64,000 nt of DNA from Isoetes taiwanensis (Eukaryota; Streptophyta; Lycopodiopsida; Isoetales; Isoetaceae): the NCBI GenBank assembly GCA_021234155.1, contig JAJEKV010000329.1:186001-250000 (forward strand), read 5' to 3'. Of this stretch, positions 760-41,636 are shown in pieces. The notes under the pieces are model-generated. The model worked only from the letters and a program-made list of their open reading frames with translations. It was not told the DNA's origin and ran no database searches. Position numbers and translations under genes: made by a program. Within the stretch, counting starts at the first letter, position 1, and every line of letters begins with the position of its first letter.

Positions 760-908
760 GAGCACCCTTGATTTGCCCCTTTCTGACTTTCTCTCTCTAG
801 GGTTTACAATCTCTCTCTAGCCTCAAAACCCCCAAAAAGGTGCTCTGACCACAACACGATTGCAAATTAAACGGGAGTGTTGCATCACTCCCGTTTCAAA
901 GATTCCCT
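760..908 (+). repeat. Left inverted terminal region of the 8.4 kb transposon
   Basis: This region contains GAGCACCC (760-767), the AAAAAGGTGCTC block near 835-846 and a perfect 11-bp stem, AAACGGGAGTG (869-879) against CACTCCCGTTT (886-896). It is followed by CAAAGATTCCC. The reverse complement aligns block by block with 9042-9225. TTAA at 867-870 precedes ACGGGAG. Confidence 0.6.
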
Positions 909-1441
909 TTAAAAAAACACCAAGTTTCTAAAATAAGCCTTTTTTTGATAGTTGTTGAGAATTTCTAGAGGTTCGCATTTTTTTTCATGCCATTTTGGCC
1001 CATCATTAGACGAAAACTTTGTACTTATGAAACAGAAATCATAAAAATAGCGAAATTTAGGCATAGACTTGAAGAGACTGAAAGCATTACAGAAAACAAG
1101 CACCAGAATAGAAAGGAAAAAAAAGTACTATGTTTTTAATAAATTGTTGTACATCAATATTGAAGATTCATTGTAATAAATAATGATAATTTAAATATGC
1201 AGAGTCAAAGATCTACATCATAGTCCTCCTCATTCTTTTGCCGCTCTACGCCATCTCGCCCTTCGTTCTATCTTGCTCCTTCTTTGGGAGACTTGAGTTT
1301 TTATCCTCCTTGTCCTTGGAATGGTAGCTAAAGCTACTTCTTTAAGCTCTCGCAAAGGTTGCCTCATCGTCTAGTGAGTGGAGAATGGAGGTCAGTATCT
1401 CGGAGGACGTTAGTTTAGCATAATCGATGAAGACTTGGCCC

Positions 1442-2330
1442 CTAGCTCTTGATGTTCATCCGTAAAGTAGGTAAAGCAGCCAGTCTCATCTTCACAAAAT
1501 TAACAGCATCCTTATCAATATCCACGGCTACACAGTTGCGGCCCTTCTTAAGTGCACATGCGATAGTAGTACCAGAACCAGAGAAAGCATCAAGCACCCA
1601 GTCTCCTGGACGCGAGAACATGTCCAGGAGATGGTTGATGAGCTTTTGTGGTTTCTAGTAGTGATTCACAATCCTGCCTTATGCAGTTGGGTCCTGCAAT
1701 TTCAGAACATCGCTGGAAACTCAAGGACGTTTGAGAAGTTTTGACAAAGGCAAATGTTGAAGTGTTCCATGGTCCTCTTCCCATCAAAACTCCAATAAGC
1801 TACATGAAGGTACTCTACCTTGCTAAGCAACCTTGGTCCTCCACCATGGTAGTTGATGTTCGTTTTGTACCTAGTAAAACATTTAAAGTGATGTTTACTT
1901 AGCAAAAACAAGAACACACTTCGAAAACGAGAAGCAGGAAATACTATTCCGGAATACACTACGTAAGCAAAGAGAAAAGTAATCAGATTTCGAATAAGAC
2001 TTACTGCATAAGGTTTTCATATATCCGAACCGGAGAACCAAAGTGGTTTTAAAAGTCGATTCTACCAAGCCGCATCGCATGCTCGAATGGAAAGTAACTA
2101 AACGCCAATGTTTAGCCGTTGTAGATCTGCTTTGATTCCATCAATAAAAGCATTAAACTCTGAAAATTTGAAGGGCTGGTCGTCATATCTCGGCTGTCTT
2201 TAAGCTTAAACCCGTAGGGAAGATCAGCAATAACCAAAGTGAAGTCCCGTGGCTTAACCGTCCGGACTAGGTTCGATTGCAATCACCATGAATGATTGAA
2301 TATAAATTGTTTTGATCAAACATGCGGAAT
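1442..2330 (-). pseudogene. Beta-class DNA amino-methyltransferase (N6A/N4C type), degenerate
   Basis: The minus strand reads, in order: YSIIHGDC, then VIADLPYG (motif IV, the DPPY-class catalytic motif, here DLPY), then YDDQPFKFSEFNAFIDGIK, a probable intron, VLEFP, KPQKLINHLLDMFSRPGDW, and VLDAFSGSGTT (motif I, AdoMet binding) followed by GRNCVAVDIDKDAV and a stop at 1442. Motif IV before motif I is the order of beta-class enzymes such as CcrM, which methylate the exocyclic amino group of adenine or cytosine. At least two one-base shifts and in-frame stops are present (near 2195 and 1640-1690), so this copy is broken unless unusual splicing hides them. A possible intron at about 1870-2020 contains a copy of the ATTCCGGAAT palindrome. 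Such enzymes are typical of bacteria and rare in plants. Its position inside a transposon suggests an element-borne gene. The domain call is firm; the modified base is unknown. Confidence 0.75.
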
Positions 2331-2372
2331 CTCTCGTAGTCGGATGGTTCTAACTCACGATTCTTACGTCGA

Positions 2373-2790
2373 CTAACGACCTCTCTTCCCGTCGTTTCTA
2401 ACCAAATGCATGAAGCCCTCGGGGAAGGTCTTTGTTTTTCTTTTTGCTCGAGGAAAACATGACAACAACCGTAAGGAGATCGTGGTGTGCAAAGGCGAGG
2501 AATGTTGAGAGTACTTACCCACCCTCAAAATTTGGTGCATATTGCACAATTCGTCGAAGCCGGTGGCTGAGTGGTAGAGTTCCTTGCACCTTTCCCATGT
2601 CTCTACGTTTATTTGCTCCATCAAACATGTTTGACATGTTATGACGCTCTTTTGGCTGCAAGACGTTAAGGAAACAATGAGTTAAAAGTAAGAAACAAGG
2701 CAAAGAAGAAGAAAAACAAATAAAAGTCAAGCTAAATGTATTTCGAATACAAAACCGGTTAATCGGTGATGTTACCTCTAAACAAAATGC
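2373..2790 (-). other. Possible upstream exon of the methyltransferase gene
   Basis: On the minus strand a frame of 83 codons (2624-2373) ends shortly before the methyltransferase domain. It includes the segment ETWERCKELYHSATGFDELC and ends in FMHLVRNDGKRGR, then a stop. I do not recognise the family. It lies between the 2.8-3.0 kb palindrome array and the catalytic domain and is on the same strand, so it could be an exon of the same gene. No conserved domain supports this. Confidence 0.25.
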
Positions 2791-2792
2791 AT

Positions 2793-3010
2793 TGTGTATT
2801 CGAATACACATTGCTTCTCGAAGAAAGCAATGTGTATTCCGGAATACACAATATTTTTTTAGAAGAGGACATGTGTATTCCGAATACACATGGCTTCCTT
2901 TACATGGGCAATGTATTCCGAATACACATTGCTTGTCTCTAGAAAAGCATTGTGTATTCCGAATACACAATTGCCCATGTGAAGAAAGGTATGTGTATTC
3001 CGAATACACT
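2793..3010. repeat. Array of six palindromes phased at about 40 bp
   Basis: Six near-perfect palindromes of the form TGTGTATTC(C)(G)GAATACACA occur at 2793-2810, 2831-2850, 2872-2890, 2911-2928, 2951-2969 and 2992-3010. Their centres are 39 to 41 bp apart. A decayed copy lies near 2737-2751. The spacers differ in sequence, apart from short AAGCAAT/ATTGCTT extensions. Regular spacing of about four helical turns suggests protein binding on one face of the DNA, for example by the transposase. This is inference. Confidence 0.85.
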
Positions 3011-3059
3011 ATCTACCCCATGTTTTTGGGACTCTAACGCCTAAAGAGTAAAGTTTGTG

Positions 3060-4253
3060 GCGTAGATCTTACTTGTGCAATTCCTTTGACATTTCTTCTA
3101 GGCTAAACTCCTTGTCAACAACTTTTTGGAGAAGCCTCTCCAGTAATCTCTCGTGGTCTGAGAAGCCCGCATTTCTCCGCAGACGGTAATGGTCATTTCT
3201 TTTTGGGCACGCGGATGATTTTTCTTGGCTGTCTCCTTGCCCTTGCTCTTTAACTCCCCTCGCTTGAACATTGAAAATATCTCGCCTTGGAGTTCCCAAA
3301 TCTGTTCAAAAGATTTCACGTGAGATAGTTGATTTGTTATTCGAATACGCTTTTGTGCTTACCTTGCCATCTCTAAAAGCTAATTGAAACCGGTTATCGT
3401 GGCCAATAAGAGATCGCCTTTTATTGGCCTCGTCATATTTTAGGGCAAAGATTCAATGGCACACGCCTCCTTAAGCTCCAAGGAAAACGCTGGGCTTCTT
3501 CAGTCCTCACCGCACTTTTCCTTGAAAATTACATTATTCTCGTGCATGAACGGATCTTGTCGATTTAAGCTCATCTTTAGTTTATATTCGTTGTCGCGAT
3601 TGTGGGGTGTTGGCAACGATTTTCACTTCTTCATCGGGTAAGACCACAGTAGAGCGGCCAAGCAGAGGAGGGCGGAGAGGTACCTCGGGTTCTTCTTCTC
3701 TTTGTAAAGTTGCCTTCTTGCCTTGAAGCTGTGATTGCCTCCCAAGACGTAGTGAGTGTAGGTCTCTGCGTTTTCTCTGTCATAGTCCCGGGGTTTTTTA
3801 CCGCTGCTCCTCGTCAACAAGGACAACTATTGGGGCCACATGAGCATTTGATTGCTCCTTATTCTCGTCTTTCAGGTTCCTCAAGTGATTGCGTAAATTT
3901 TAAGTAACCTGAAGTGGCCTTTCACCAGCTTCATTTTTGGTGGAAGCTTCATACAAGTGGATCGGCAAATAAATAACACCTTGCACAAACTTGTGCGGTG
4001 TTTATCTCCTCCATTTTTTCAGATGTTTTATCAACTTTTTTTTTTCTTTGATAGCAACACCAGGTGCTTTGCCTTTCCCTTCTTCTTCTTTTGTGCCTCA
4101 GGAGCATCTTCTGTTGCAATCAAAGCCGTTTGCTTTTTTTTAGGCTCTTTAGCGGCAACGGTTTGCCTTTGCCACTTTGGTGGTGGTGACGGTGGCCTTT
4201 TCGTCGGACACTGATGGACTCCCAGATGGTGATGCACCGCCGGGCTATCCGGG
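3060..4253 (-). other. Low-complexity, possibly intronic or exonic stretch of the minus-strand gene
   Basis: Several short minus-strand frames occur here: 3319-3098 with FEQIWELQGEIF, and 4237-4031, which is lysine-rich with a KKKKGKAKH tail. None has a recognisable domain. They may be exons or remnants of the same transposon gene that ends in the methyltransferase. The lysine-rich stretch may simply reflect the T-rich plus strand. Confidence 0.25.
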
Positions 4254-4607
4254 TTATCTTCCCCTTCTTCTCGACTTCGCAGGGGAAGTCCTCGTTATTA
4301 GCTCGAACGTAGTTAATGATGGAACAGGCGACTTCTTGTTCAGGTAGTGAGAAACATACTTGTAAAGAGGATGTGGATTTACTTTCACAACTCTAAGGTA
4401 TGATTCATCAACATGAATAAAGCCTTGGGATGTCTGAAAAGAAAGTCTCCCTTCCTGACCGGACTCCCCAGCTACCTCACTGACGGCCTGGATGGTGCCC
4501 ATGCAGACAAATTCCCTGTCATCGTACCTTTTGGTTCCGTGGCTCGAAACGGACATGTAGAAAAAGTCGCAGCCGTACTTTCTGAAGTACCCCTTGTAAA
4601 GAACCAT
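4254..4607 (-). CDS. Unrecognised 117-codon frame within the transposon
   Basis: An uninterrupted minus-strand frame starts MVLYKGYFRKYGCDFFYMSV and ends with the basic SPAKSRRRGR. Its composition is protein-like (mixed hydrophobic and charged residues, segment ESYLRVVKVNPHPLYKYVSHY), unlike most chance frames nearby. It lies on the methyltransferase strand and downstream of the second palindrome array, which would be its promoter region. It could be an N-terminal exon of the methyltransferase gene or a separate accessory protein. I recognise no domain and do not assign a function. Confidence 0.35.
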   Translation of the reverse strand: MVLYKGYFRKYGCDFFYMSVSSHGTKRYDDREFVCMGTIQAVSEVAGESGQEGRLSFQTSQGFIHVDESYLRVVKVNPHPLYKYVSHYLNKKSPVPSLTTFELITRTSPAKSRRRGR

Positions 4608-4966
4608 TGAGTCTGGAAGTTTTCGTAGATAGCTGGCGCAGCTGACTCCTCAAGCCTTCTCTGTGGGTGCGGTTTTTGTACGACTTTGAGGGGCCTTTTC
4701 TGTTGTTTCTTGCTGTTGTCTTGTCTGTGCAAATTGTTTGTAAACACGACCTTGTTAGAGAAAAAAAAGATGGCAAAAACTGTTCCAGAATACAAAATGT
4801 CTTGCAAAAAGGGAAAAAAGAGGGCAAAAAGAGGACAAAAATGCCAAAAAAGCACTGCAATCTTGACAAAAAAACTGGTCTAAACAAGCTTTAAATGCAG
4901 CAAAAACGCCTAGATTAACTAAAAATCGCATGGAAAAGTAACCTCTTAAAACCTAAAAACACGAAA

Positions 4967-5150
4967 GTGTATTCCGGAATACACTTTTGCTTTCACTTTC
5001 AGAAAAGTATGGCCGGATATACTTTTGCTTTCACCGGAAAGTGTAGAAAAAGTGTATTCCGGAATACACTTTCGCCTTCGACTGAAGGCCAAAGTGTATT
5101 CCGGAATACACTTTCGCCTTCGAGTGAAAGCAAAAGTGTATTCGGGAATA
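4967..5150. repeat. Second palindrome array (GTGTATTCCGGAATACAC)
   Basis: Perfect 18-bp palindromes lie at 4967-4984, 5052-5069 and 5094-5111. A diverged one lies at 5006-5023 (AGTATGGCCGGATATACT) and a decayed one begins at 5136. Centres are 39, 46, 42 and 42 bp apart. Flanking bases extend the symmetry as AAAG and CTTT. Scattered half-sites continue to about 5405 (for example GTGTATTCCAGAATA near 5391). The array lies between the minus-strand frames (below 4.9 kb) and the transposase gene (from 5551), so it is placed like a shared divergent control region. Confidence 0.85.
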
Positions 5151-5550
5151 AGAAACAGACATGCAAATGATTGTACGTTGTACTTTCTTACTGACCTGTC
5201 CATGTTCTCTCTATGTAAATCGGAATACAGTCTCTGAATATTATAATCGGATACTGGCTATTGGGCGACTTGAGCTCAGAGACTGGAATACGCAACTGAA
5301 GGCGCCGAAATTTCCTTTTAAAGGTATCATTTTCGTCTTGCTCTTTTTCTATGTGATGCGGAATACGTTCAGCTTTACTATCCTACTCTTGTGTATTCCA
5401 GAATAGCTTTTATTTTGACTTTCACTTGATTAGTACTGGAACTTCTACTTGTACTACGTGGGCGGTATTAGGAATAAGAAAAAGCTCAGATTACAGAAAG
5501 TTTTCAAATCTCTTTACATTTTGCGCTTGTCAAGATGACGAACCGCTTAC

Positions 5551-8500
5551 GTGAACAAGCTTCCACCACCTTTTGTTGTCTCAAGCTCGCCGGTTCCGAG
5601 GACACGCTTTGGGAACAACGCCATTTCTAGTGAAGACCGCATTCTCGAAGTCCTACCTGCGCTTCATCGTTGTTGCTTCTCGAAGACACACCGAGTCCAA
5701 AGACATAACAGACTTCCACCACCCTTCCAACCGTCACCAAGTCCTCGTGAGACAAACACACTGGCATCTCCTTCCAAAGAATCACCACTAGTTCGGAGCG
5801 GGTTGCCACCACCCTTTGTTCCATCCCCGGGACCTGCAGAAGCTCCACAACAAAGGGTGCTGAAGAACAAGCTACCCCCCTTTTATAGTTTAAGCCCCTT
5901 CGTGCAAACATACAAGGAACATGAAAACACGTAAGACCGTGAGATTCACTACAATTCTCTCACCCGGGACTTCACTACAAATGAGGACGACGCTCCAGCA
6001 TGCACTCCTCTTCACACAACAACGGTTGTGACACATGGATTTGCAGAATTCCAGTCCGCTCTAAAGGAGATGTTTGCAAGAACTCCTTTTCAAGATGGTA
6101 CAAGAACAGCTGATGCCACAACCTCTTATGGGCCATCGCCATCCTTTAACACTGTACCCCCGCCTATTCCGGGAACAACTTCACGTGGTCTGTTTTCCTC
6201 TACAAGCACACCACTCAGGACAGAGGAAGTCACCCCCAGAGTAGAAGTTTCATCAGAAGATGAAGACACCAACGAGGAACAAAGAGATTACATGTTCTCA
6301 AGCCAATCTTCAAAGAAATTCAAGGTGGATTTTGGTTTGAGGGCGTGCTCCTCTGCAAGAAGAAGAAATCTTATGGATGAACACAAAATGAGGAGACTTT
6401 TGAGAACTAAATGCTGCTCATTGGGTTGCATCAACAGATTTAATATGGCTAAATTACGAGCAGTTAGAGACAACTACAGTTCCATGACATTGGCAGACCA
6501 GAATGCCTACTTAGCTTATCATGTAAGACCAGACCGCAACACCTTCTTGCACTACATTAACCGTCAAGAAGTTTGCCAGAAATGCTTTATGGTTGTCCAC
6601 CGTTTAGGGTCCACCGTAATGTCCAGAATACACAAAAAGGCGGACAAAAATCCAAAGAATCGATGATCATTGTGGGCCAAGAAGAGTTGTAACCATGCAT
6701 GCCCTTCTTTCTTTGTGTCATGGATGGAGAAATATTTTAGAGAAACATGTGAGAAGCTACCTAACAAAGCAACATGTATCATTTAACCGATAACATCACC
6801 AAAAAGATGTTTTTAATGAGTACAAAGAGACTTGCACTTTCGGCCAAAGACATCTCTTACTCACACTTCACCGGAAAATTGGAAAAGTGAATTCGGTCTT
6901 GTGAAAATTCCTAAAAACATAGAATGTCCGCTTGCTCGAGGTGTGCAGTAATTAAAGAGTCAACGAGAAACCGCAAAAGACAGAGGGTAAAGAAGTAAGC
7001 TCATGTTCTCCAATCTCTCACTTGTTTTGAGAAAATGTTTTGACCTGATTTCTTCTACAGATATTGTGCAATGTAACCTTTGCGGACATCGTGAACAACA
7101 AGCAGCAGAGAGAAGAAAGCTTGCCAAGCATAGAAAAAAAGCTCTTGAACGTCCACTGCAATACATGTCTGTTGTGATTGATGGAATGGACCAAAAAAAA
7201 AACAACTCTACCACATTTCTTGAACATTCCTAAGGATGTGCCAGAGGAATGTTTTGTTAAGGTCCACCTTGTAGGAGCTATGGTCTTCAAAGGAAGTCTA
7301 AAGTGCAAAAGTATTTTTGACGATCCAAACTTGCATGGTGACGAACCTCACAATTACAATTCTTAACAAGGTCCTCAGGCGAGCAAGAGCAATTACCACC
7401 AGTGCTTTATCTGCAACTTGACAATACTACAAGGGAGAACAAGAATCAAACACTCTTTGCGTACTGTGCCATGTTAGTGGAGCTAGGGATCTTTAGAAAA
7501 GTGAAGCTCGGTTTCTTACTTGTAGGCCACACTCATGATCAGATTGACCAAATGTTCAAGAGATTTTACGGCGCCTTTAGAAGGAAGAAGGCTTTTCGTC
7601 TTCCTTCTTTAGTCGAATTATTGAAGATTCTTACACTCCTACCCAAAGGGTCGATCTTCTTAAAGAGACCGCTGATTTTAGAGAGTTTGTTTTCTCTCAA
7701 CGCTCAAACAGAACAAGCCGTGAACAAGTTGAATGATCTCACCTTTTCAAAGATCATATCAAGTTCTACTTGAAGGATGGCCAAAGCTTCTTACAGGGGA
7801 AGAAGTATACCACAACCAAGGACTGAGTCCACCGGAGGGATTACGCTTCCTTAAATATATTCCGGACACTTCCTTCATAGAGCCGTCTTTGAACAACTTC
7901 CTCTCAAAAATCCTAAGGAGTCCAAGGTAAGAAAAGTACCCCGAGTCATCCTTAAAAGCCATTGAAAATGGAATTTCCTCAAAGCTTTAAGTACTTAGAA
8001 GAAGATCGGATGTGGTGGAGTAATTTCTTTTCTAACAGAAAATTGTTGTACAAAATATAGCTCTAAGACAGTTGCAAGAACCATTTCAATGGCCTAACAC
8101 CTTCCATCAACCCCAAAGACCAAGGTGTCCAAGCAAAGGCTACATTTGCACCGCAGTAGAAGACGAGGAGGACCGAAGTCATGTACCCTCGGACCAAGAC
8201 GCAGAATGAGCCTCAAGGTAATATCACGAAATTACCAAAGGTATGCTAATTGCTCTTCCGATCGAGGAGGATGACAAAGGTCGCACTGCTCGATAGCAAA
8301 AAGTGCTTGACACGGTCAAGGAGGAAGGCTTAGTCACTAAACTCAAGATTCATTGGCTTGCAACACGCCTCGAAAAATGCTTTTGAAGGTAGATATGAGT
8401 TAGAAATGAGAAGCCAAGGAAAAGGGAGAAAGTCCAAGAAGGTGGGTTGTAGACGAAAGCTGAACCTTAATGACGTGACTATTTTGTGCTATGATTTTAA

Positions 8501-8755
8501 ATTGAAATCGACAATCATCTACGAGAAGAAGACTATCAATTTGCTTAAAAAGCTTGTAATTACGAAGAAGATGATGAAGAAGGTGGTGACAATGCTTCAC
8601 CGTCTGTTGATAGTGATGAGGAAGATAACTCAAGCACTTCCTCGGATGTTGATGAAAGAAGTGAAGGTGATGACGATGGCATAAATGAACATGAAGACGT
8701 CCTGGATCCCTCTCTCTCATCACTCCTCACACTTTTGCACATAACCGAGTCTTAG
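5551..8755 (+). pseudogene. DUF7869-type (DDE/RNase H-like) transposase, degenerate
   Basis: The reading frame is split by shifts and stops but keeps the order of this eukaryotic family. (1) A proline-rich N-terminus (5551-5934) has four KLPPPF-like repeats. (2) At 6028-6666 a basic/Cys region has CCSLGC, then YLAYHV and VCQKCFMVVHRLG. (3) WMEKYF near 6722 and a CNLCG finger near 7075 follow. (4) The core has VVIDGMDQKK (7165-7200), LQLDNTTRENKNQTLF (about 7408-7460) and GFLLVGHTHDQIDQMFKRF (about 7510-7565). These three blocks fit the acidic positions of an RNase H-fold transposase. (5) PPEGLRFLKYIPDT lies near 7830. (6) An acidic, Ser/Asp-rich tail ends LLTLLHITES at 8755. A frame shift sits at a 10-A run near 7192. 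The family is widespread in plants, animals and protists and is thought to be transposase-derived; catalysis is inferred from motif placement only. Confidence 0.7.
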
Positions 8756-9041
8756 AAAACATTTGAATTTTGATGTGAATATGAAGATTCTATCTTCAAA
8801 TTTTGAGAATACTACAGTTTCAATTACTGGACTTACTTCAATTTTTTTGTTAAATATTTTATCCACTGAAATTAGAGTTTCTCTCTTTTAAAACATACTT
8901 TAAGAACATTCTTTTTGCTAAGAAAAGTGACACTTTAAAAAAGTCAATTCCTTCGTTGTAAAAAAATTAGTCATTTGGGGGTCAAAATAGAATTTCATGC
9001 ATCTTTTTTTTTTTTTTAACCTCATTTTACCCCTTTTTAAA
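8756..9041. other. AT-rich subterminal spacer
   Basis: No coding potential is visible between the transposase stop and the right terminal region. There are T and A runs near 9005-9050. Confidence 0.6.
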
Positions 9042-9303
9042 AAAAAAAAAAGGAATCTTTGAGGAATATTCCTTTTGCTCTCGTTTCAATGATTTGCTCC
9101 CGTTTAATACGCAACTTTGTTCCACGATTTTGAGTCCCCAAATTGGATTCTGAGCACCCTTTTTGCAGCTAGAGACCCCTCAAACTTTGGAACCCCAAAA
9201 CCCCCAAACCCCCAAAAAGGTGCTCGACCGCGATTTTTGAGTCCCCAAATTGGATTCTCGAGCACACGTTTACCAACCGAGACCCCCTCAAACTTTGGAA
9301 GTC
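9042..9303 (-). repeat. Right inverted terminal region with a tandem repeat of about 107 bp
   Basis: Reading outward there is GGAATCTTTGA (near 9052), CTCCCGT (9097-9103), TTAA (9104-9107), then GAGCACCC and finally AAAAAGGTGCTC ending at 9225. The outer part is partly duplicated: a unit containing GAGTCCCCAAATTGGATTCT and CCTCAAACTTTGGAA occurs at about 9121-9200 and again at about 9229-9303. The duplication makes the true outer end ambiguous. Confidence 0.55.
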
Positions 9304-18420: not shown

Positions 18421-20046
18421 GGGCACGGCAAGAATATAGGGTACCCTAAAAAGTGCAGAAAGGGGCGGCCAAATCTGAGCCGTTGAGGGGAAAAACCCTA
18501 GCATGAGCTGCAACCCTAGCCGAAAATGCTCTGTACTGCCGACCTGCAATGGTGCAGGTAACCGGATTTGAAGGTGAAAGTGCTGGTTCTTGCTTAACAC
18601 AGATGCAAGCTGGAAGTTACTAATTTGGTATAGCGGATATGATGCCGAAATATGAGCGCTTATGGATAGGAACTGGCCGGTGGTGCACAGGAATGCTCAA
18701 ATCTTCAGAAATGATGGCCAGAAATTGTTGCAACAGTGAAAACTTGATGGATGCAGACCAAAAATCGGTGCCCACAGAGGCTCAAAGCCATGGGTGACGT
18801 ATAGATGAGGAAGAAGCCAAGGGATCAATAGGTAAAGTTGAAAATAAATTGGTGCTCCAATCACGGCCGGAACTGTAATGTGCTGAGAATGCTTGTGTGT
18901 AGATGATGAAGACCAGAGAGACGTGAGAAATCCGAGTTTGAGGCTTCAAGGTGGAAGAGTTTCTTCAATCCAATTTGTGCTTGAATAGTTCTCTATAACT
19001 GGTATCTGCATGGAGCAGATGAATGGGGGCTAGTAGGGATGCTGGCCCTCTTAAAAACTCAATAAAAAATAGGATCATTTGTGTGCGGTAAAAAGGCATC
19101 GATGGAATGTATAGAAGGAAGAACTTGAATCCTTCTAGAGCCGGAAATGCGAGAATGATTTCTTTGTACTGATAAAATGAAACTTTAGTGCAGGTACTGG
19201 CAGGACAAACAAGTGATAGGAGTTGCCCCAACTCATGGATTCTGAGCTTCCTTTTGAATGTATGCAGAGACCGAGCTGAGAAGAACTAGAGAAAAAGGGC
19301 TGCACCAATTCTGAACCCAGGTAAAGCCTAATGCTTGAAATAATCCCTGTGGGCGCTCCAAATGAACTGACCATAATCGGAACTGTGATGCAGGGACTGA
19401 GATGGGCTGCATAAAGCATGCTACGATTTTTCTTGTAACAGGGTATGAGGGCTAGCCAGAGTGCTGGCCCTCCACAAAAATAAAACAAGAAAGCTTTGAA
19501 AACGTGTTCTGGATGCCAATAAATGAAGTGCTCCTGCACAAAGCTGCCCCAAAGCATGTTTGCATATAGCTGCACCAAATAAGATTGGAAATTTTTGATG
19601 TGCAGAATAGAGTTGTGCTGCACGAGTTTTTGGAAAAATATTGAGGAAAAGACAATCAAATTATTTTTAGAGTTTGCTGAAAAACCTGTAAGCAGGAATA
19701 AGAACGACCATAAAGGATTCAAAGTGTGATTTTTTTGATGATCTTGCACAGTGGAGTGCTGTCACCACTCCAGAAATCCTTGACTGCAAACTGGGCTTGC
19801 TGCACCTTAAGAACAGGGTCTTGAGAACAGATTTACGAGATTAAATGGATCAGCTGGCAGAATCATCAACTGTTTTGAAAAATTAAAGCCTTCAAGCGGA
19901 TACAGGAATCAGGAATCGACTTGGTTGGGCAAACTAAGGAAATCTAAAGGGTGAAGAATAGTATACAAGAAGTCTTCAAAACAGAGAAACATGAGAGCAG
20001 CAAGACAACAGCAGGCAGTAAGGCGAAGGAAAGTGATCACGAGCGA

Positions 20047-20420: not shown

Positions 20421-22703
20421 GTTTTTAGCACAAAAACATGTACAGACTTTTATAAGACAAGTCCGACAATTACAACATGGTGCCAAAAATTTTAGGGGCG
20501 AAAATGATGGTAATGGTTGGGTTGGGTCGCCGTAAAAGATCTTCATTAATGTGTCGGTGACGGATAAGATCCGAAAGAATGTCAATGCAGAACGTGGATC
20601 ATAGGAACTGGGCAAGAAAAATATGAAGACTATCCCCTTATATCATGGGGAAGTCCATTTGAACAAACAATGCCCAAAATTTTACTTACAAACAAGTATG
20701 ATAGGGGCTTAAAAAAGTAAGCACCATAAAAGCGTGCCCCGTGATCAGCCATAGGGGAGCGTGAGCGTGGGCGTCAGCGTGGCCCGTGGGTCAGCAGCAT
20801 GAGCATGGAAAATAAAAAGCATGAAGAGCGTGGCAAAGCGTGGGTCTTAAAAAACAGAGCGTGGGTTTTGTGAGGACAAAAATTACAGAGCGTGGCTTTT
20901 GCGTGGTCAATCTGCGTGGTTAATTTGCGTGGTCAATCGTGGGCAAAAATACAGAGCGTGGGCTGTGATCGTGACTTTTTAATTAGCGTGCCGTGAGCGG
21001 TTATCAGCCAGCAAAAATATTTTGCCTGTGGCGTGGAACGTGACCCGTGGGTACAAGCGTGGGTGCCCTGCACGTGAGTAGGGCACGGCAAGAATATAGG
21101 GTACCCTAAAAAGTGCAGAAAGGGGCGGCCAAATCTGAGCCGTTGAGGGGAAAAACCCTAGCATGAGCTGCAACCCTAGCCGAAAATGCTCTGTACTGCC
21201 GACCTGCAATGGTGCAGGTAACCGGATTTGAAGGTGAAAGTGCTGGTTCTTGCTTAACACAGATGCAAGCTGGAAGTTACTAATTTGGTATAGCGGATAT
21301 GATGCCGAAATATGAGCGCTTATGGATAGGAACTGGCCGGTGGTGCACAGGAATGCTCAAATCTTCAGAAATGATGGCCAGAAATTGTTGCAACAGTGAA
21401 AACTTGATGGATGCAGACCAAAAATCGGTGCCCACAGAGGCTCAAAGCCATGGGTGACGTATAGATGAGGAAGAAGCCAAGGGATCAATAGGTAAAGTTG
21501 AAAATAAATTGGTGCTCCAATCACGGCCGGAACTGTAATGTGCTGAGAATGCTTGTGTGTAGATGATGAAGACCAGAGAGACGTGAGAAATCCGAGTTTG
21601 AGGCTTCAAGGTGGAAGAGTTTCTTCAATCCAATTTGTGCTTGAATAGTTCTCTATAACTGGTATCTGCATGGAGCAGATGAATGGGGGCTAGTAGGGAT
21701 GCTGGCCCTCTTAAAAACTCAATAAAAAAATAGGATCGCTGTGTGCAGGTGCAGACTGATGGAATGTATAGAAGGAAGAACTTGAATCCTTCTAGAGCCG
21801 GAAATGCGAGAATGATTTCTTTGTACTGATAAAATGAAACTTTAGTGTAGGTACTGGCAGGACAAACAAGTGATAGGAGTTGCCCCAACTCATGGATTCT
21901 GAGCTTCCTTTTGAATGTATGCAGAGACCGAGCTGAGAAGAACTAGAGAAAAAGGGCTGCACCAATTCTGAACCCAGGTAAAGCCTAATGCTTGAAATAA
22001 TCCCTGTGGGCGCTCCAAATGAACTGACCATAATCGGAACTGTGATGCAGGGACTGAGATGGGCTGCATAAAGCATGCTACGATTTTTCTTGTAACAGGG
22101 TATGAGGGCTAGCCAGAGTGCTGGCCCTCCACAAAAATAAAACAAGAAAGCTTTGAAAACGTGTTCTGGATGCCAATAAATGAAGTGCTCCTGCACAAAG
22201 CTGCCCCAAAGCATGTTTGCATATAGCTGCACCAAATAAGATTGGAAATTTTTGATGTGCAGAATAGAGTTGTGCTGCACGAGTTTTTGGAAAAATATTG
22301 AGGAAAAGACAATCAAATTATTTTTAGAGTTTGCTGAAAAACCTGTAAGCAGGAATAAGAACGACCATAAAGGATTCAAAGTGTGATTTTTTTGATGATC
22401 TTGCACAGTGGAGTGCTGTCACCACTCCAGAAATCCTTGACTGCAAACTGGGCTTGCTGCACCTTAAGAACAGGGTCTTGAGAACAGATTTACGAGATTA
22501 AATGGATCAGCTGGCAGAATCATCAACTGTTTTGAAAAATTAAAGCCTTCAAGCGGATACAGGAATCAGGAATCGACTTGGTTGGGCAAACTAAGGAAAT
22601 CTAAAGGGTGAAGAATAGTATACAAGAAGTCTTCAAAACAGAGAAACATGAGAGCAGCAAGACAACAGCAGGCAGTAAGGCGAAGGAAAGTGATCACGAG
22701 CGA

Positions 22704-40720: not shown

Positions 40721-40909
40721 CATGCATGAGCCATCTCATAAAGCACACGCCTAGATAAACCAAAGTCTCGATAATTAGCTCTCTGTCTTCTAGTTAGGGG
40801 GAGTATGAAAAGTCCTTAAGGTAATTTGAGTCCCTCGTTCCCCAATAGACTGGCCTACAATAATACCTAAACCCTGGTCATATACTGCACACTTGATGGT
40901 GGCACGAGT

Positions 40910-40963
40910 TCCCCCCCCCCCCCCCCCCCCCCCCCACCAAAAAAAAAAAAAAAAAAAAAAAAG
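40910..40963 (+). repeat. Poly(C) followed by poly(A)
   Basis: A run of about 26 C is followed by ACC and about 26 A. It lies in one of two diverged tandem segments of about 190 bp (40867-41060 and 41075-41170). The length may be affected by sequencing error. Confidence 0.85.
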
Positions 40964-41636
40964 AAACCCACCCCATCCATGTTGTTTGTGGTGGTTGTTC
41001 TCGTTGCAGGTATACTTGGCCATCGGGGGCCCCCGGAGGGGGGACAAGGGACATCCCCCAAGGCTTGATGGTGTATGGCTCAAACCATGGTCATGTATTA
41101 TATACTTGGTGGTGGTAAAAGTCCCTCTATGTTTGTGGTTGTTGTTGTTCTCATTGAAGGTACAGTTGGACGTTTGGTAAGGTAAGATTACATAGTCCTC
41201 CCACGTTTTTTTATCATATACTGGTTTGCTTGATATTTGAATAATGTCTAGAATGCCTTTAAAAAAAAAAAAAAAAAAGCCCATATCTATAGTGGTTTGA
41301 TAGTCGTTAATTATGACAATTGTTTTTTTTTTTTTTGGAGTAATCATTATGGATAGCCACATCCTTTTAGCTGAATGCCTATAAATAATTACCATGAAAA
41401 TTAACTTGCTTTTGAAACTATGACACAAACCACAACCATTTTATAACATACATCGTGATATAGAAAACTAGCATGATTAACCACCATGGCATTTAAGTTG
41501 ATATAGAAGTCCACGCCAGAACTACTTCAACTTTATGACAATAGAAAACCAACATAAACAACCATCACCATATTTAAAGTGATGTTGAAAAACCATGTTA
41601 CAAACCACTGTTGACATAATAAACCATGCAACATTA

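Follow-up and report, generated by a model that had tools for sequence, protein, structure and literature searches.

The 64,000-nucleotide stretch of the Isoetes taiwanensis genome analysed here (the window; contig JAJEKV010000329.1, positions 186,001 to 250,000, forward strand) contains a DNA transposon in which two genes lie divergently, a DUF7869-type transposase gene on the plus strand and a gene for a predicted DNA methyltransferase on the minus strand, with short palindromes in the methyltransferase introns and around the region between the genes (Table 1). An original prediction, made from the sequence alone, had recognized the pair by translated motifs, and these are present on the expected strands: IDGMD (near 7178), LQLDN (near 7411) and GHTHDQID (near 7525) on the plus strand, and GDC (near 2285), DLPYG (near 2215) and DAFSGSGTT (near 1590) on the minus strand. 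Pfam bears out both assignments, with DUF7869 (PF25273) matching 7402-7773 on the plus strand (E 1.8e-29; 103.1 bits against a gathering cut-off of 26) and N6_N4_Mtase (PF01555) matching 1442-1654 on the minus strand (E 2.1e-15; 57.7 bits against 26.7).

A transposon carrying a divergent gene pair

Copies of the element were collected with window positions 1442-4610, the methyltransferase region, as query. The best 40 of 2013 candidates were scored and gave 103 matches, which were grouped into 40 places including the window, and 20 of the other 39 places were fetched with their flanks. The left border of homology corresponds to window 850-853 in all 20 fetched copies and the right border to 9120-9124 in 17; in L024 the match to the window ends at 9001, and L015 and L028 contain about 3-4 kb of foreign DNA, which places their right border outside the fetched stretch. 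Terminal inverted repeats (TIRs) of 25 bp are present at both ends (majority letters of 18 copies), and an exact 4-bp target-site duplication (TSD), its sequence varying between copies, flanks 17 of 18 copies (window counted; L015, L024 and L028 left out), the odd one being L014, in which one base is missing at the right end. The window also holds a related empty site, which the original prediction had proposed to look for: the flanks of the element, joined with one copy of the TSD, align with 9201-9258 over 87 columns with a score of 104, compared with at most 24 in 200 shuffles. Because this host flanking repeat recurs at 9201-9258, the borders first proposed, 760-9225, were too wide, and the homology limits of the copies place them at 853 and 9121. 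The element represents a family of cut-and-paste type DNA transposons of about 8.3 kb, with 25-bp TIRs and 4-bp TSDs. The alignment of copies left out L015 and L028, and the consensus used below is the majority sequence of 14 of its rows (the window plus 13 copies, without L021 and L024-L027).

Table 1. Features of the transposon and its insertion site, in window coordinates
Feature	Position	Strand	Basis or remark
TSD, left copy (CCAC)	849..852	.	exact 4-bp duplication
Whole DNA transposon	853..9121	.	borders of homology among 20 fetched copies
Left TIR, AACACGATTGCAAATTAAACGGGAG	853..877	+	25 bp
Methyltransferase gene (predicted)	1208..4640	-	consensus open reading frames, GT..AG junctions, N6_N4_Mtase, Adiantum homologue
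Methyltransferase exon 4	~1870-1208	-	approximate transfer from consensus
DAFSGSGTT segment, C-terminal part of predicted beta-class methyltransferase	1442..1654	-	N6_N4_Mtase, window's own frame
Palindrome TATTCCGGAATA, last methyltransferase intron	1945..1956	.	sites in diverged lineages too
Methyltransferase exon 3b	~2449-2007	-	approximate transfer from consensus
DLPYG segment	2112..2282	-	translated motif
Methyltransferase exon 3a	~2656-2518	-	approximate transfer from consensus
Palindrome array, methyltransferase intron	2797..3006	.	six sites, ~38-41-bp spacing
Methyltransferase exon 2	~3303-3073	-	approximate transfer from consensus
Shortened palindrome TATTCGAATA, first methyltransferase intron	3338..3347	.	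consensus form TATTCTGGAATA
Methyltransferase exon 1	~4640-3364	-	approximate transfer from consensus
ParB-like stretch, tentative (PIVVLVD..THYVLGGNHSFKARRQL)	3623..3950	-	TIGR03764
Palindrome array, central region between divergent genes	4970..5150	.	palindrome scan
Palindrome TATTCCAGAATA upstream of transposase start	5394..5405	.	palindrome scan
Transposase gene, approximate, frame-broken in window copy	5535..8755	+	reading frames, consensus, 106 homologues
DUF7869 core (IDGMD, LQLDN, GHTHDQID)	7162..7770	+	Pfam DUF7869
Probable BAH-like C-terminal domain of transposase	8150..8420	+	window placement inferred
Right TIR, reverse complement AACAAAGTTGCGTATTAAACGGGAG	9097..9121	-	25 bp
TSD, right copy (CCAC)	9122..9125	.	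exact 4-bp duplication
Related empty site (neighbouring copy of flanking repeat, no insertion)	9201..9258	.	joined-flank alignment

In the window, and in all 17 fetched copies in which both ends could be read, the same pair of ends encloses the two genes. Because this first sample had been selected through the methyltransferase and was hence biased, a second sample was chosen through the transposase. The best 40 of 1948 candidates were scored; eight of these matches (window counted) have a methyltransferase match from the earlier search less than 10 kb away, and among the other 32 we probed 20, leaving 12, by taking 801 bases at the expected methyltransferase site. The probe encodes part of the methyltransferase in 16 of the 20. 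For the remaining four, 1.3-1.4 kb next to the transposase was examined: in C438 this stretch contains methyltransferase exon 1, in C963 unrelated DNA truncates the gene within exon 1, and in C1034 other DNA interrupts the element, the transposase gene continues beyond the interruption and the methyltransferase region is outside the reach of the probes; the fourth, C985, is taken up below. Of the 20 transposase-chosen copies, 18 have the methyltransferase gene in whole or in part, with C1034 and C985 counting neither way. TIR-bounded copies without the methyltransferase were not seen in the two gene-chosen samples, no TIR-based survey having been run. These observations support the earlier reading that the pair belongs to one TIR-bounded element.

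Several copies have suffered insertions of their own, in L027 near 556-1132 (about 0.6 kb), in L021 near 3930-4210 (about 0.3 kb) and in L015 near 1159-4348 (about 3.2 kb); in all three the matches on either side of the insertion share 3-6 bp, as would be left by other transposons. L025-L027 form a sub-type with a diverged central region (67-68% identity at window positions of about 4964-5368), in which window positions of about 4103-4963 are not matched by pieces of 150 bases or more.

The two proteins and selection on the methyltransferase

On the consensus, the DUF7869 match of the transposase strengthens to E 1.4e-50 (172 bits). A homologue search with the transposase gave 106 proteins (E <= 0.001) with up to 85% identity, and the family is known from Ceratopteris, Adiantum, Riccia, sea urchin, amphioxus and coral. 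Precomputed Pfam domain lists for the 106 homologues, which concern the proteins alone and not the surrounding DNA, contain no methyltransferase domain. In a modelled fern homologue, residues 681-796 give BAH-type matches, and the C-terminus of the transposase is probably BAH-like. We found no paper on DUF7869 in the open-licence literature. Sola transposons have a 4-bp TSD, with which the TSD of this element agrees, and from the TSD alone one might guess at membership of the Sola superfamily; a review of land-plant elements lists Sola1 of Physcomitrella (PMC9033089).

The consensus methyltransferase gene has several exons with GT..AG junctions and matches N6_N4_Mtase with E 9.3e-17. DAFSGSGTT is presumably its S-adenosylmethionine (SAM)-binding motif and DLPYG what we take to be catalytic motif IV; by itself the DLPYG fragment (2112..2282) gives no Pfam match. 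In beta-class enzymes catalytic motif IV precedes the SAM motif, and here DLPYG lies in exon 3 and FSGSGTT in exon 4. The gene is accordingly filed, by its Pfam score, as a predicted beta-class DNA methyltransferase of the N6-adenine/N4-cytosine type; given the D-L-P-Y-G form of motif IV, N6-methyladenine (6mA) would be a likelier product than N4-methylcytosine (4mC). Phage methyltransferases of PHROG 67 match the consensus over 417 residues (E 3.9e-27), the CcrM structure 6pbd matches with E 6.1e-11 and aligns its DPPY opposite the DLPY found here, and the NCBIfam CcrM family matches with E 1.1e-13, under that family's cut-off. These phage and bacterial enzymes are alike in sequence but prokaryotic, unlike the enzyme of a plant element. 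In tblastn searches of phage and plasmid records (394 and 272), no single place covers 80% of the query, and among the matches listed (15 phage and 8 plasmid rows) coverage is restricted to the methyltransferase part; we therefore name no donor. A search for homologues with the broken frame of the window copy gave none among 7994 scored candidates, and the 14-copy consensus gave one among 5350. A fern relative, Adiantum nelumboides P0001, matches the consensus with E 4.6e-33; its gene model is odd, with A-P-Y-G at the catalytic motif, and Pfam finds no methyltransferase match in it. Upstream of the enzyme domain, a stretch resembling ParB (PIVVLVD...YVLGGNHSFKARRQL) matches TIGR03764, the sole NCBIfam family there, with E 2.5e-4 in L013 and 3e-3 in L043, which represent two lineages, weakly suggesting a resemblance and not family membership.

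The transposases of the probed copies are 91-94% identical to that of the window, yet in 11 of 16 the methyltransferase DNA shares only 66-73% identity with that of the reference copies (87-92% in the other five), and the lineages of the element seem to have exchanged halves or parts. The 66-73% group comprises L033, L034, L036, L038, L039, L040, L045, L046, L048, L049 and L054. Between the consensus of one lineage, lineage A, and the pooled fragments L033-L040, 226 codons could be compared; they contain 15 amino-acid differences, and the nucleotide differences fall 18/8/123 on the three codon positions, corresponding to a ratio of nonsynonymous to synonymous rates (omega) of 0.011 (twice the log-likelihood difference from omega 1, 332). 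Between lineage A and L043, 509 codons contain 67 amino-acid differences, with codon positions at 52/39/263 and omega at 0.033 (twice the log-likelihood difference, 519). An earlier codon run had given 47 differences at 75 fourfold sites. Omega was estimated with a two-sequence codon model of our own, from codons in regions with a local identity of 50% or more, which favours conserved stretches, and pooled fragments contributed a codon only where at least two had it. We do not think it possible for this filter to produce such a third-position excess. Divergence is heavy at third positions and the protein has changed little, and the methyltransferase has therefore been maintained and not dragged along: its codons show strong purifying selection while several lineages multiplied and, on the same evidence, the gene is one long retained inside the element family.

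Palindromes and broken reading frames

The original prediction had described the ends of the element as rich in hairpins; the palindromes lie instead in the methyltransferase introns and the central promoter region. The 8.25-kb consensus contains 16 copies of TATTCNNGAATA, none of them in assigned coding sequence, which makes up 72% of it: two are in the last intron, seven in a middle intron, mostly at a spacing of about 41 bp, and one in the first intron, while the remaining six surround the divergent promoter. Shuffling gives an expectation of 0.03. Across 17 copies there are 207 palindromes in 142 kb of element and none in 27.6 kb of flanks. In the window copy, five of the six sites of the array at 2797..3006 have shortened centres. 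The diverged fragments carry one or two sites in 11 of 11 cases (a centre of 0-3 bases allowed), lying, where they could be read against the protein, at the start of the last intron, immediately behind its 5' splice site; outside these sites this intron can hardly be aligned between lineages. A genome-wide count of the exact 18-mer GTGTATTCCGGAATACAC gives 2585 (its reversed control, 0) and, at a few per copy, this roughly suggests a family of several hundred copies.

The window copy has frame breaks in both genes; longer frames open on both strands in the majority sequence. In the alignment of the window with L009-L023, short deletions affect 2.4-4.4% of bases at CTG, CAG, CCGG, CCTG and similar words, compared with 0.3-0.4% at AA/TT and 0.8-0.9% at AAAA/TTTT, an excess at CNG/CCGG-type words of about 6-13-fold over AA/TT. 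The I. taiwanensis assembly was built with nanopore reads (PMC8566536), and the pattern probably reflects nanopore errors at cytosines methylated in CG and CHG contexts, left uncorrected in repeats. Part of the frame breakage may thus be sequencing error and not decay, and we therefore conclude neither that all copies are dead nor that any is live.

Possible roles of the methyltransferase and relation to known systems

The original prediction had suggested three purposes for the enzyme: marking the palindromes, controlling the transposase or evading host silencing. The account that we favour, and to which we give about an even chance, is that the element uses the methyltransferase as an epigenetic tool of its own, for self-directed marking and anti-silencing. 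The enzyme would bind or modify the TATTCNNGAATA palindromes in its own introns and in the shared promoter, or DNA nearby; the mark or the bound protein would keep the promoter and the body of the element active against host cytosine methylation, favouring expression of both genes and letting the enzyme set its own dose, much as VANC proteins act on VANDAL transposons of Arabidopsis, and the transposase, with its probable BAH-like tail, would then mobilize the element. The role, the modified base and the link between enzyme and palindromes are what we infer beyond a constrained enzyme and conserved arrays. That the enzyme is constrained, has stayed in the element and is accompanied by motif arrays is most simply explained by a self-directed mark. 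A fuller version, in which a land-plant transposon places its own bacterial-type mark (6mA or 4mC) on a palindrome array of its introns and promoter by means of a ParB-like/methyltransferase anti-silencing system, old enough for its lineages to differ heavily at synonymous sites and shared in some form with ferns, is possible but doubtful.

Several results weigh against this account. In C985 neither probe contains element DNA, and the methyltransferase gene may be missing. The canonical catalytic motif of beta-class enzymes is D/S-P-P-Y, and here D-L-P-Y occupies that position. The TIGR03764 scores of the ParB-like stretches are 20.8 and 17.2 bits, far below the cut-off of 143.75, Pfam gives DUF6551 at E 0.016 in one of these stretches and an unrelated match at E 0.062 in the other, and no DNA-binding domain was identified. 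Within lineage A, ratios of 0.74-0.99 for shared substitutions indicate at most mild constraint, and singleton ratios scatter from 0.56 to 2.61; copies here are too young and too laden with errors for the codon test to be informative, and so little signal is what mostly dead copies would give. CpG retention is 80% in palindromes, compared with 69% in other noncoding and 63% in coding sequence, a difference based on nine sites. Insertions and deletions at palindrome centres were considered as a trace of a special mark and rejected, because CCGG, CCAG and CTGG elsewhere are changed nearly as often (17, 16 and 12%, compared with 21% of palindromes and 4.6% of other 4-mers). The palindromes could serve a protein other than the methyltransferase.

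One such protein might be the transposase itself or a host regulator, bound at the palindromes for promoter control or autoregulation while the methyltransferase acts elsewhere, for instance genome-wide or on other sequences. Perfect palindromes of about 18 bp at a spacing of about 41 bp suit a dimeric DNA-binding protein, and the connection between palindromes and enzyme is a proposed one, but the methyltransferase's own introns contain the largest array and further sites, and sites recur in all the diverged fragments, and we consider this explanation rather unlikely. Methylation might also gate transposition, with the transposase or its BAH-like tail acting on one modification state only, as Dam methylation gates transposition of Tn10 and Tn5 in bacteria. 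A strongly constrained enzyme encoded divergently from the transposase in one element, and the probable BAH-like C-terminus of the modelled homologue, are compatible with such gating, which is nevertheless unlikely, since control would be expected beside the TIRs and the palindromes occupy the introns and the central promoter.

A further explanation would make the gene a functionless passenger of the element, acquired a single time and multiplied by hitch-hiking. Such a history would fit the broken frames of the window and of most fetched copies and the little constraint visible within lineage A, but it is largely refuted by the between-lineage omega values, and with a relative present in the fern A. 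nelumboides we regard it as highly improbable. That the methyltransferase is of bacterial type might raise the suspicion of contamination, or of an assembly that joined a bacterial gene to a plant repeat; the chance of this is negligible, given that the scored places number about 40 and are spread over many contigs in the 1.66-Gb assembly, with exact ends, spliceosomal-type introns, TIRs and TSDs.

Self-directed marking by the methyltransferase would have partial parallels in known systems. VANDAL21 of Arabidopsis is likewise a plant DNA transposon with an extra gene, VANC, and motif arrays in that gene's introns and upstream; the VANC targets, mainly in non-coding DNA, occupy introns of two genes, VANC and VANB, and sequence upstream of a third, VANA, but VANC is not described there as a methyltransferase, and the motif is YAGTATTAY and not the palindromic TATTCNNGAATA (PMC5735166). 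VANDAL elements are defined by a MULE (Mutator-like element) transposase and the VANC protein, in place of which this element has a DUF7869 transposase and a methyltransferase, so that only the motif layout is alike. In fungi, DNA transposons of several superfamilies carry TET/JBP dioxygenases, also epigenetic enzymes but ones that oxidize methylcytosine, accompanied by other transposases in non-plant hosts, and Harbinger and MuDR elements of Phytophthora, again not a plant, carry SET histone methyltransferases, which are not DNA amino-methyltransferases (PMC12730594). Element-borne DNA methyltransferases are known from DIRS retrotransposons with a Dam-like adenine methyltransferase and from retrotransposons with DNA methyltransferases (DNMTs) in dinoflagellates and Klebsormidium, KnitGypsy-Dnmt3 being reported to be under purifying selection (ratio of nonsynonymous to synonymous substitution, Ka/Ks, < 0.2); these are retrotransposons, and their enzymes are Dam-like or of the C5-cytosine type, in contrast to a beta-class enzyme beside the transposase of a DNA transposon (PMC5890265). 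The same source mentions marine viruses in which DNA transposons encode a DNMT, similar in that combination but viral and, by the paper's usage, of the C5-cytosine type (PMC5890265). Pfam scans of the main reading frames of our element found neither the reverse transcriptase nor the tyrosine recombinase of DIRS. The bdelloid N4CMT is likewise a bacterial-type amino-methyltransferase gained by a eukaryote but is a host gene that aids transposon silencing and is not transposon-borne (PMC8885841).

No plant element pairing a DUF7869-type transposase with such a methyltransferase was found among the titles and abstract openings listed by searches of open-licence literature. Transposons with their own epigenetic enzyme are already known; what appears to be new is an amino-methyltransferase in a plant DNA transposon. 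Whether 6mA and 4mC are real, enzymatically written marks in plants is disputed. Here a candidate writer of prokaryotic type, kept by selection, travels with candidate target sites in probably hundreds of copies, and the question becomes testable on native reads. If the proposal is right, an amino-methyltransferase writer carried by a plant DNA transposon would join VANC-type binders and TET/JBP erasers in the arms race over transposon silencing.

Elsewhere in the window, a reading frame at 40790-41428 on the minus strand has a C-terminal end that resembles plastid rpoC2 and is perhaps nuclear plastid DNA. Two nearly identical frames of 204 amino acids on the minus strand, at 19135-19749 and 21792-22406, lie 2657 bp apart and look duplicated.

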